Of a stretch of DNA of 38,502 nucleotides, positions 19,228-23,791 are shown piece by piece. Source of the DNA: Maricaulis sp. (GTDB taxonomy: Bacteria; Pseudomonadota; Alphaproteobacteria; Caulobacterales; Maricaulaceae). The notes beneath the pieces are model-generated. The model worked only from the letters and a program-made list of their open reading frames with translations, was not told the DNA's origin and ran no database searches. Within the stretch, counting starts at the first letter, position 1; the number at the start of each line of letters is the position of its first letter. The stretch spans positions 1-38,502 of the forward strand of contig JAEPND010000018.1 in the NCBI GenBank assembly GCA_017643585.1. Reading direction: 5' to 3'. A program made the translations under genes and the position numbers.

Positions 19228-20214
19228 ATGGCACAAAGTCGCACACACCGTATCATTCTTGCCCAACCCCCCGGCGGGCCGGAGGTTTTGACCGTTGAAA
19301 CGCGTCAGATTCCAGACCTTCAGGCGGACGAGATCCTGATCCAATCCGCGGCCTGTGGCATTAACCGTCCCGATCAGATCGAGCGGTTGGGATTCTATCC
19401 GGCACCGGCCTGGGCCCAACCGGGGCTGGGGCTGGAAGTGTCCGGAGTGGTGGTCGCCGTCGGCGCGGAGGTAACCACATTCCGCACGGGAGATGAGGTC
19501 TGTGCCCTGGTCTCTGGCGGCGGATATTCCGACTATGTGATCGCCAAGGCTGGCGCGGCCTTGCCCAAACCCGCAGGTCTGGACCTGGAAGATTCAGCAG
19601 GTTTGCCTGAAACCGTCTTCACCGTATGGGCGAATGTGTTCGAAAGCGGTGCACTCGCCCCGGGCGAGACGTTTCTGGTTCATGGCGGGACGAGCGGTAT
19701 TGGAACAACTGCGATCCAGATGGCCAAGGCGCACGGCGCCCGGGTCATCGCGACCGCTGGCACCAAGGATAAATGCTCGCTTTGCCGGGAGCTGGGCGCG
19801 GATGTCGCGATCAATTATCGCGAACAGGATTTCGAGACTGTTTGCCAGGACGAGGGCGGTGTCGACGTTGTGCTCGACATGGTGGGTGGGCCCTATGTGC
19901 AGAAGAATATCAACATCCTGAAACAGGGCGGTCGCATGGTGTCGATCGCCTTTCTGCAGGGCAGCCGGTGCGAGATCGACCTGATGCGGGTCATGTTGAA
20001 ACGCCTGACCCTGACGGGGTCTACACTGCGGGCGCGTCCGGACAGTGAGAAGGCGCGTCTGGCCGAGGCCATCCGCGCCCGTGTATGGCCATGGATCGAG
20101 GCGGGACGTCTCAAGCCTGTTATCGACAGCCGGTTTGCCCTGGGCGATGTCCGCTCGGCACATCAACGACTGGATGGCGGCGAGCACTCAGGCAAGATCC
20201 TGCTGATTCCGTGA
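19228..20214 (+). CDS. NAD(P)H quinone oxidoreductase, PIG3/QOR-type MDR
   Basis: The 328-aa protein is a zinc-free medium-chain dehydrogenase/reductase close to the quinone oxidoreductase PIG3 (TP53I3) family, which reduces quinones with NADPH. The N-terminal catalytic domain has SAACGINRPDQIERLGFYP and LGLEVSGVVVAVG. The cofactor domain has LVHGGTSGIGTTAIQMAKA at about 150-168, then GADVAINYREQDF and VLDMVGGPYV. No structural zinc Cys cluster is seen. The ATG at 19228 is preceded by GCGGGAAAG. The gene lies within the rcdA-DUF1192-QOR-trcR block, divergent from DUF1192. A candidate small RNA follows it. Confidence 0.88.
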   Translation: MAQSRTHRIILAQPPGGPEVLTVETRQIPDLQADEILIQSAACGINRPDQIERLGFYPAPAWAQPGLGLEVSGVVVAVGAEVTTFRTGDEVCALVSGGGYSDYVIAKAGAALPKPAGLDLEDSAGLPETVFTVWANVFESGALAPGETFLVHGGTSGIGTTAIQMAKAHGARVIATAGTKDKCSLCRELGADVAINYREQDFETVCQDEGGVDVVLDMVGGPYVQKNINILKQGGRMVSIAFLQGSRCEIDLMRVMLKRLTLTGSTLRARPDSEKARLAEAIRARVWPWIEAGRLKPVIDSRFALGDVRSAHQRLDGGEHSGKILLIP

Positions 20215-20223
20215 TAATGTATT

Positions 20224-20343
20224 CAGCGAAGTGCTTTGCAGGTCTCGCGAGCTGAGCTATATGGGGTGCAAATCGCTTCGCTGGAGCTTGCTCTCGGTGA
20301 AGCGTCGGAAGCCCAAGCCCGGCCGCCGTGTCGGGCTTTTTTT
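20224..20343 (+). ncRNA. Candidate structured small RNA or leader upstream of trcR
   Basis: Bases 20224-20240 pair with 20267-20283 in a 17-position stem with one mismatch and one G-T pair. The arms begin CAGCGAAG and end CTTCGCTG, and the loop is 26 bases. A small hairpin GAGC-TT-GCTC follows, then an intrinsic terminator (20315-20343). A GATAAT box at 20214-20219 lies just upstream at the right distance for a start near 20224. The whole unit of about 120 nt sits between QOR and trcR. No known RNA family (tRNA, SRP, 6S, tmRNA) fits. It may be a free sRNA or a trcR leader that ends in an attenuator. Confidence 0.55.
20315..20343 (+). terminator. Intrinsic terminator just upstream of trcR
   Basis: AAGCCCG and CGGGCTT form a 7-bp stem with a 10-base loop and a run of seven T. 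It ends 23 bp before the trcR ATG and only a few bases before its ribosome-binding site. It could therefore be either the end of an upstream transcript or an attenuator. Confidence 0.85.
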
Positions 20344-20366
20344 ATTTTCCAGGGAGCAAAACTGGC

Positions 20367-21041
20367 ATGACTGAAATTCTGATGCCGAAAGCCACAGCGG
20401 TATGGCTCGTCGACAATACGTCCCTGACCTTTGATCAGATTGCCGACTTTTGCGGCCTGCACCCGCTGGAAGTCAAAGGTATCGCTGACGGCGACGTCGC
20501 GACCGGCGTACGTGGCGCTGACCCGATTTCCAATGGTCAACTGACGCGGGAAGAAATCGCCAAGGCAGAAGACAATTCCGATTACCGGATGTCGGTCGTG
20601 AAGCCGAAATATGCTGATCTGCATCAGCCGTCCAAGCGCCGCGGCCCGCGCTATACGCCGCTGTCGCGTCGTCAGAATCGTCCGGACGCCATTGCCTGGC
20701 TGGTTCGCAACCACCCGGAACTGGCCGATGCCCAGATTTCCAAACTGATCGGCACGACCAAGACCACCATTCAGGCTGTTCGTGAGCGTACGCACTGGAA
20801 TGCGGCGAACATCAAGCCGACCGACCCGGTCTCGCTGGGCCTTTGCACGCAAATCGATCTTGATGAGCAGGTGAAGAAGGCCTCGGCCCGTCGCAAGAAG
20901 ATCGAAGAGGAAAATCCGGAACTGCTGGCCGATACGCTCAAGCCGACGGATGAGCTCGAGACGCCGGAAAATGATGATCTGCCGACCGGCGAGATCAATC
21001 TGGAAACCCTGTTCGGTGGGTCCGGTTCCAGCGACGACTAG
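20367..21041 (+). CDS. trcR: TrcR-type cell-cycle regulator (DUF1013)
   Basis: The 224-aa protein belongs to the DUF1013/TrcR family, described as a cell-cycle transcriptional regulator in alphaproteobacteria. The N-terminal part has PKATAVWLVDNTSLTFDQIA and FCGLHPLEVKGIADGD. The middle has DAIAWLVRNHPELADAQISK and LIGTTKTTIQAVRERTHWN, two helix-turn-helix-like units. The tail is acidic and low in complexity. The ATG at 20367 has AGGGAG upstream; a 13-residue longer frame would start inside the terminator hairpin and is rejected. It is monocistronic, with terminators on both sides. Direct DNA binding is inferred from the family. Confidence 0.9.
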   Translation: MTEILMPKATAVWLVDNTSLTFDQIADFCGLHPLEVKGIADGDVATGVRGADPISNGQLTREEIAKAEDNSDYRMSVVKPKYADLHQPSKRRGPRYTPLSRRQNRPDAIAWLVRNHPELADAQISKLIGTTKTTIQAVRERTHWNAANIKPTDPVSLGLCTQIDLDEQVKKASARRKKIEEENPELLADTLKPTDELETPENDDLPTGEINLETLFGGSGSSDD

Positions 21042-22921: not shown

Positions 22922-23110
22922 CTAATTCGCCATGCTAGTTAATTCTGTTCGTCGGAGTGACTCGATCTGCTCCTTTATTCGGAGTTTCTCCTTCTTTAGA
23001 TTGGCCACCTCTAGCGAGTCCGCGGACGGATGTCGTTTAACCTCGTCGATCTGGGCATCAAGACGCGAATGTCGAGCGTCGAGCTCACGGATGCGGGCGT
23101 CGATTGGCAT
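22922..23110 (-). CDS. DUF465 (YdcH-like) small coiled-coil protein
   Basis: The 62-residue protein is of the DUF465/YdcH type. It begins MPIDARIRELDARHSRLDAQ and ends in a coiled coil with VANLKKEKLRIKEQIESLRR. The KKEKLR(I/L)K(E/D) core is the family hallmark. The function is unknown. The ATG at 23110 is chosen because the longer frame reads into the upstream promoter region. It is divergent from ubiX with a 93-bp spacer and has its own terminator. A related gene lies on the other side of ubiX at 23948. Confidence 0.85.
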   Translation of the reverse strand: MPIDARIRELDARHSRLDAQIDEVKRHPSADSLEVANLKKEKLRIKEQIESLRRTELTSMAN

Positions 23111-23203
23111 GGAGTTGTCTCCCTCTACTGAAGTGGAACCCGAGTATTGAAAGCAAACTCTGACATTCTGTCTATTCACGAAACGTTTCGCGGTTGAGGA
23201 AGA

Positions 23204-23791
23204 ATGAAGACTCAAAGACTTATCGTCGGTGTTTCCGGCGCCTCGGGCATCATATACGGCATGCGGGCGCTTCAGATTCTCCGTGAACTGAATGTTGAAA
23301 CGCACCTGGTCGCGTCCAAGGCGGCCGAAATGACATTGAATTACGAGACTGATTCCTCGATCGCGGAATTCCGCGGCATGGCGGACCAGGTCTACAAAAT
23401 GCCGGATGTCGGTGCCTCGATTGCCTCGGGTTCCTTTCGCACGATGGGGATGCTGATCGCCCCCTGTTCGGTTCGCACCATGTCGGAGATCGCCGCCGGC
23501 GTGACCTCAAGCTTGCTGACACGGGCAGCGGATGTCGTCCTCAAGGAAAGGCGCCGGCTGGTGTTGATGGTCCGTGAAACCCCCTACCACCTCGGTCACA
23601 TCCGGACGATGGAAAGATTGACCGAGATGGGGGCGATCATCTGTCCCCCTTTGCCGGCCTTCTATACCAACCCCAAATCCATCGACGACATCGTCGACCA
23701 GTCTGTCGGACGCGCGCTCGACCTGTTCGACCTGGACTGGCAGGACACCCGGCGGTGGGGCGAGGACCTCGAGAAGGGTCGCAGGGGGTAG
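23204..23791 (+). CDS. ubiX: Flavin prenyltransferase UbiX
   Basis: UbiX joins dimethylallyl phosphate to FMN to make prenylated FMN, the cofactor of UbiD decarboxylase in ubiquinone synthesis. The 195-aa product starts with QRLIVGVSGASGIIYGMRAL, the FMN-binding loop. SGSFRTMGMLIAPCSVRTMS at about 75-94 and RRRLVLMVRETPYHLGHIRT at about 116-135 are the conserved phosphate- and flavin-contacting segments. PPLPAFYTNPKSIDDIVDQS follows as in the family. The ATG at 23204 is preceded by GAGGAAGA. The gene is flanked by two DUF465 genes. No ubiD is in the window. Confidence 0.96.
   Translation: MKTQRLIVGVSGASGIIYGMRALQILRELNVETHLVASKAAEMTLNYETDSSIAEFRGMADQVYKMPDVGASIASGSFRTMGMLIAPCSVRTMSEIAAGVTSSLLTRAADVVLKERRRLVLMVRETPYHLGHIRTMERLTEMGAIICPPLPAFYTNPKSIDDIVDQSVGRALDLFDLDWQDTRRWGEDLEKGRRG

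Follow-up and report, generated by a model that had tools for sequence, protein, structure and literature searches.

In Escherichia coli, the short 5' leader of greA carries an intrinsic terminator before the coding sequence. According to parts of the report on this system (PMC6829880), about one third of the transcripts pass the terminator and the others end up as a short RNA, GraL; GreA down-regulates itself in cis by way of GraL, which also acts in trans. Passages of another paper (PMC2965389) predict an antiterminator in greA leaders. They also describe the rimP-leader of the rimP-nusA-infB operon, a short leader terminator of strongly conserved sequence and with no visible antiterminator, and its authors read this pattern as control by a termination/antitermination protein, with NusA as the best candidate. 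In Rhodobacter sphaeroides, the dcw cluster has a 268-nt 5' leader, and its terminator yields the sRNA UpsM, as stated in sections of PMC5089854.

Here we analyse the region directly upstream of trcR in a 38,502-nt stretch of DNA from Maricaulis sp. (in the following, the window) and in related genomes. TrcR is an RNA-polymerase-associated factor according to portions of the literature, and the title of a PNAS 2021 paper has TrcR tracking with RNA polymerase. On the strength of sequence comparisons, we consider it probable that the region serves as the 5' leader of trcR and contains an intrinsic terminator, which would end part of the transcripts early and let the rest through.

The terminator upstream of trcR

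The gene downstream of the element was confirmed as trcR (20367-21041, + strand; PF06242, transcriptional cell cycle regulator, Pfam E 2.9e-65), as the first-pass annotation had proposed; its start codon is the ATG at 20367. A quinone oxidoreductase gene (19228-20214, + strand; TIGR02824, 429.5 bits) lies upstream, and rcdA (NF051867) is located upstream of trcR on the opposite strand. The intrinsic terminator (20315-20343, + strand) has the sequence AAGCCCGG...CGGGCTT. It consists of a hairpin of -14.3 kcal/mol, in which 20315-20323 pairs with 20330-20338, and a run of seven T (TTTTTTT, 20337-20343); the annotation had noted the terminator and its seven T. The annotation had also placed the end of the unit a few bases before the ribosome-binding site of trcR, and this holds true: 7 nt separate the end of the T run from AGGGAG (20351-20356, + strand), a site that was read from the sequence.

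TrcR was detected in 114 of the 119 genomes of the window's family, which comprises mostly marine bacteria, and the DNA upstream of 110 trcR genes was read. To be counted, a terminator had to have a hairpin score of at least 12 and at least 5 T in 8, and to lie no more than 150 nt from the start codon. With these settings, a terminator was found in 110 of 110 sequences, representing all 18 of the 18 genera that have trcR. Resampled sequences gave a mean of 11 hits per 110. Unfiltered open reading frames scored in 17 of 117 cases, but this set included spurious reading frames, and a codon-filtered set was thus used instead; it yielded 13 hits among 89 genes, 7 of which represent one neighbouring gene in seven species. 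The distance between terminator hairpin and trcR start codon ranges from 19 to 95 nt (median 38, 110 sequences) and is 28 nt in the window. The exact terminator sequence of the window was found as a single copy in 12 of 14 Maricaulis genomes, the other two lacking it, and another version occurs once in six of ten genomes of other genera and is missing from four. All 18 of these places (12 in Maricaulis, 6 in other genera) are directly before trcR. Directly after the leader terminator, TTTTTTAATGNCTNAATTT or near variants of it were seen in genera g2, g9, g11, g12, g16, g18 and g19 (e.g. loci L179, L196 and L209); in the few cases inspected by eye, its reading frame relative to trcR was not constant.

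Outside the family, the U-rich terminator before trcR is not general. The same rule detected it in 7 of 60 other alphaproteobacteria. Among loci grouped by title and leader, the T rule was passed by 14 of 31 Caulobacteraceae (with loose rules), 1 of 17 Parvularculales and 0 of 17 Rhizobiales; a strong GC hairpin within 90 nt was present in 31 of 31 Caulobacteraceae, 9 of 17 Parvularculales and 9 of 17 Rhizobiales, these hairpin values being counts without a shuffle control.

Other conserved blocks were noticed upstream of trcR in these lineages. The Caulobacteraceae-like loci L047 and L053-L108 have a near-invariant 22-nt hairpin, CGCCCGGCCGAAAGGCCGGGCG, right after the -10 element and 21-56 nt before trcR. 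A regular expression for it matched 26 of 31 loci, and 14 of the 80 genomes of the order have the pattern in exactly one copy, all of these 14 being among the 16 of family f2; the location was checked in genome G170. Between promoter and trcR, the Parvularculaceae loci L044-L046, L049-L052, L056, L057, L066 and L104 share the strongly conserved block CGCTTTCCCCGAAAATCCGGCGGTTAGCGCGG, which varies slightly among them; the two loci that were scanned (L044 and L045) had no Rfam match. The Rhizobiales loci L074, L076, L084, L085, L097 and L101 have a conserved block of their own, CCGTCATG...GTGAGGCT or TTTGAGGCT...GCCGGGCC.

Because the oxidoreductase gene of the window reads in the same direction as trcR and stops 100 nt short of the terminator, the terminator could in principle serve that gene. 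We consider this very unlikely. A conserved promoter (see below) stands between the two, and in every one of ten loci examined, which represent eight genera (g2, g6, g9, g11, g12, g16, g18 and g19), the upstream genes are divergent from trcR and the terminator is nevertheless kept, ending 27-76 nt before trcR. An rcdA-family gene (DUF1465 by Pfam, E at most 2.5e-48) is present in all ten of these loci, and nine have a DUF1192-like gene, Pfam-confirmed in three, between it and trcR; short reading frames on the trcR strand that are antisense to the divergent genes were taken as spurious. In such an arrangement the terminator can hardly act on anything but the trcR transcript, and service to the oxidoreductase gene is contradicted as a general explanation. 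Together with the gap of 19-95 nt to the start codon, the divergent neighbours thus place the terminator in trcR's own leader.

Elsewhere in the window, a hairpin GGGCGGCTTTCAGGTCGCCC followed by TTTTT was observed on the minus strand (22839), 54 nt upstream of the start of a TPR-like protein. It has counterparts in six Maricaulis loci and is probably the terminator of a DUF465 gene (22922-23305).

Putative promoter, transcript and 5' hairpin

Upstream of the terminator we identified a putative sigma-70-type promoter (20235-20263) that, judged by consensus, is conserved in Maricaulis. It consists of a -35 element TTTGCA (20235-20240, + strand) and, after a spacer of 17 nt, a presumed -10 element TATATG (20258-20263, + strand). 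Among 16 Maricaulis sequences, the -35 place reads TTTGCA in 10, TTTCCA in 3 and is poorer in 3 (TAGGCA twice, TTCCAA once), and the aligned -10 place has TATA in 15 and TATG in 1. A promoter scanner that requires a T at the -10 end found no site. By its position, the promoter consensus suggests a start at about 20267-20272. The terminated leader RNA (20267-20343, + strand) would thus likely be about 75 nt long rather than the roughly 120 nt estimated in the first-pass annotation. The fold of RNA 20267-20343 is dominated by two hairpins and has a z score of -2.25, and 3 of 200 shuffled sequences folded as stably.

The annotation had put the start near 20224, with a GATAAT promoter box and a 17-position stem with one mismatch (20224-20240 with 20267-20283), and these parts of it did not stand. 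GATAAT does exist at 20213, but there it belongs to TGA TAA, the two consecutive stop codons that end the quinone oxidoreductase gene, and 2 of 16 Maricaulis sequences have it. The left arm of the stem covers the -35 element and lies upstream of the probable start; given a start at about 20267-20272, this arm would belong to the promoter and would not be transcribed. The stem itself can be drawn, with 16 pairs (one of them G-U) and one mismatch, and part of it appears in the centroid fold of 20224-20343. It is not kept in relatives: across 16 Maricaulis sequences, 55.5% of its cells are paired compared to 54.3% in shuffles. Pairs lost in close relatives, with no compensatory change, had been named beforehand as grounds for giving up the proposed structure, and such losses are what we found for this stem. 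Five places in the window satisfy the stem rule (17 positions, at most one non-pair, loop of 3-40), and 30 first-order resamplings gave 1.9 such places on average and 5 at most; the stem is within chance expectation for a window of this size. The fold of the whole 120 nt (20224-20343) has a z score of -1.09 and barely stands out, as 26 of 200 shuffles reached it. An RNA of 120 nt built on the 17-position stem is thus the least credible of the explanations considered here, and we give it almost no weight.

The right arm of this stem overlaps a second hairpin, P1 (20274-20304, + strand), so that the two folds are mutually exclusive. In P1, 20274-20286 pairs with 20291-20304, with a bulge at 20294, and AAAU and UCGG flank it on the two sides. 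The nearest relative, L003 (95% identical), discriminates between the two structures: it differs at 20279 and 20280, where P1 keeps both pairs and the 17-position stem loses one. In the Maricaulis alignment (A2), 95.8% of the cells of the outer six P1 pairs are paired, compared to 79.4% in shuffles (none of 500 reached it), and if the partner is displaced by 1-3 columns, the value falls to 26.0-62.5%. The covariation score is 0.456 in P1 and 0.154 in shuffles. Pairs that are changed on both sides (3 versus 2.2; 123 of 500 shuffles) and pair types (8 versus 7.3; 216 of 500 shuffles) did not exceed the shuffles of this alignment, and these are the two P1 measures that are least swayed by relatedness. 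After adding five g8 sequences, 96.0% of the cells were paired in P1 and 100% in the main terminator helix. Across 21 aligned leaders, AAAU before P1 and UCGG after it are almost invariant, and the sequence of P1 is free to vary.

RNAalifold on MAFFT alignments of genera g5 (13 sequences) and g12 (9 sequences) showed no pair changed on both sides. We therefore used an alignment-free swap test, in which the 5' half of each leader was paired with the 3' halves from other species of its own genus. For the 105 of 110 sequences that belong to genera with more than one sequence, own halves gave -14.38 and permuted halves -12.14 kcal/mol, and none of 2000 permutations was as good. The difference persisted without g1 and g8 (83 sequences; -12.95 versus -11.12 kcal/mol, 0 of 2000), and a control window 70 nt further upstream showed no signal (358 of 2000). 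It is clear in g1, g5, g7, g12, g14 and g18 and small in g8, g9, g11 and g19; in g9, g11 and g19 the test showed a weak P1. The 55 nt before the terminator also outfold their shuffles, with a mean z of -1.61 compared to -0.22 further upstream, a difference whose p of 8e-13 is overstated since the sequences are related. For this measure, g4 and g13 are without effect, P1 being absent from g4 by z score, and g14 and g16 show an equal effect in the control stretch.

The first-pass annotation had left open whether the unit is an independent sRNA or a leader that gates trcR. The terminator and the 5' hairpin, both conserved in cis, back the leader, and the independent sRNA has become the less likely half of this proposal. 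A trans-acting sRNA gene that lies upstream of trcR by chance, with trcR using another promoter, would account for the compact unit of promoter, hairpin and U-tailed terminator, an architecture that is typical of sRNAs. It would also account for the single strong copy in the window's genome, where a covariance model (R1), trained on 21 leaders including that of the window, scored 87.1 bits at the trcR leader and 20.4 bits at the next best place. Still, we regard it as unlikely, since the terminator precedes trcR in 110 of 110 sequences and 29 of the 30 best R1 matches in the family are trcR leaders, one being elsewhere. Moreover, P1 is hypervariable in sequence while its pairing is kept, and thus offers no conserved seed, and the 28 nt between terminator hairpin and ATG are too short for a promoter. 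A terminated leader RNA would, of course, itself count as a small RNA. R1 matched 75 of the 119 family genomes with an E of at most 0.01; most of the weak matches lie elsewhere than the trcR leader and are probably due to chance. A match of 34.8 bits at G017:C111:19340-19410 is not a trcR leader.

That no known RNA family fits, as annotated, is true for Rfam 15. The window gave 0 matches, and a sub-threshold scan of 20100-20450 had a best score of 18 bits (E 0.74) and a lowest E of 0.45. A scan of 20 relatives returned only the sRNA BjrC1505, near Rhizobiales trcR loci (L081:433-571 and L109:1328-1472), outside the leader and with no match within it. The trcR leader RNA was not found in the papers searched on TrcR, on Maricaulis small RNAs or on sRNAs and attenuation, with the PNAS 2021 paper covered by title; passages of PMC4117421 contain nothing on trcR.

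Possible control of termination in the leader

The preferred reading, a trcR leader with a built-in terminator, can be put into steps as follows. Transcription would start at about 20267-20272 from the promoter at 20235-20263, and the 5' end of the leader would fold into P1. RNA polymerase would then meet the terminator at 20315-20343, where a fraction would stop, releasing about 75 nt of RNA, and the other polymerases would read through to make trcR mRNA. We infer this partial termination and read-through from the arrangement of the elements; probably many trcR transcripts end early in this way and yield a small RNA.

How the ratio might be set was approached by looking for competing structures. 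In truncated RNA, an alternative hairpin between GUCGG (20304-20308) and the rising arm of the terminator is predicted in 14 of 16 Maricaulis leaders. Among the 31 leaders folded, it also appears in five of seven g8 leaders and one g15 leader and not in the others, automatic arm assignment having failed for L011, L015, L022 and L026. By these fold predictions, a classical antiterminator attenuator is possible in Maricaulis, g8 and the one g15 leader. No antiterminator is conserved family-wide in the 31 leaders. An attenuator with an ATG-started leader peptide was ruled out, as 20267-20343 contains no ATG; an ATG is present in 11 of the 31 leaders.

Without a family-wide antiterminator, the ratio is probably not set by two competing folds, and would instead depend on an influence exerted on the polymerase or on the RNA of terminator and P1. 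The leading candidate would be TrcR itself, in a feedback loop such as that of GreA via GraL. Its association with RNA polymerase makes feedback on its own terminator attractive, and by analogy we put this forward as a tentative proposal that we hold to be less likely than not. The predicted structure of TrcR (28 sequences; mean pLDDT 71.8, pTM 0.41) contains, by visual inspection, what may be two three-helix groups of helix-turn-helix-like appearance. The model had no fold match in the PDB at E 0.001 or better and the sequence had no PDB match at E 1, and RNA binding by TrcR thus gains no support.

The strongest competitor of a regulated leader is a passive one, in which an unregulated leaky terminator and a stabilising 5' hairpin simply fix trcR at a low level. 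We take this seriously, at somewhat less than even odds. Neither a conserved sensor domain nor a family-wide antiterminator was seen, and P1 begins within about 7 nt of the likely 5' end; RNA-stabilising hairpins begin close to the 5' end. What argues for more than passive leakage is that the exact terminator sequence and its loop are kept across genera, and that a weak promoter would presumably be a simpler route to low expression.

Comparison with described leader terminators

A leader terminator before the gene of a polymerase factor is a kind of element already known, and the trcR leader RNA would add a new case to it. If the terminator is a target of TrcR, it would provide a ready-made reporter of TrcR activity and link the cell-cycle programme to termination. 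In any case, the trcR leader is an RNA element with family-wide conservation of its terminator that is absent from Rfam.

UpsM resembles it as an alphaproteobacterial leader terminator that yields an sRNA before cell-division genes. It differs in the length of the leader (268 nt), in its genes (dcw) and in its host family (Rhodobacteraceae), and RNase E cleavage and Hfq dependence are features of UpsM. With the rimP-leader, the trcR leader has in common a conserved leader terminator without a visible antiterminator. The rimP motif, however, has a G-rich 5' arm and a C-rich 3' arm, whereas the 5' arm of the trcR terminator is C-rich, and P1 precedes the terminator in the trcR leader. The rimP-leader pattern GGGc(...)gCCC before rimP is accordingly absent here, where the terminator reads AAGCCCGG...CGGGCTT and the gene is trcR.

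The likeness to greA/GraL is that a leader terminator stands before the coding sequence of an RNA-polymerase-binding factor, the association of TrcR being taken from the literature. Host, gene and sequence are different, and the trcR leader has P1 before the terminator. GraL also acts in trans, and termination was measured for greA, whereas the trcR leader is known from its sequence. Since antiterminators are predicted in greA leaders and the trcR family as a whole is without one, the parallel is incomplete. The trcR leader may thus work like GraL by analogy, without being a member of that group, its gene being trcR and not greA. It is conceivable, though we would not bet on it, that TrcR senses its own level via leader termination, that the RNA of about 75 nt acts on other mRNAs, and that the arrangement evolved independently beside greA/GraL and rimP-nusA. 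The trcR leader fits the idea that genes of polymerase factors have repeatedly acquired leader terminators.
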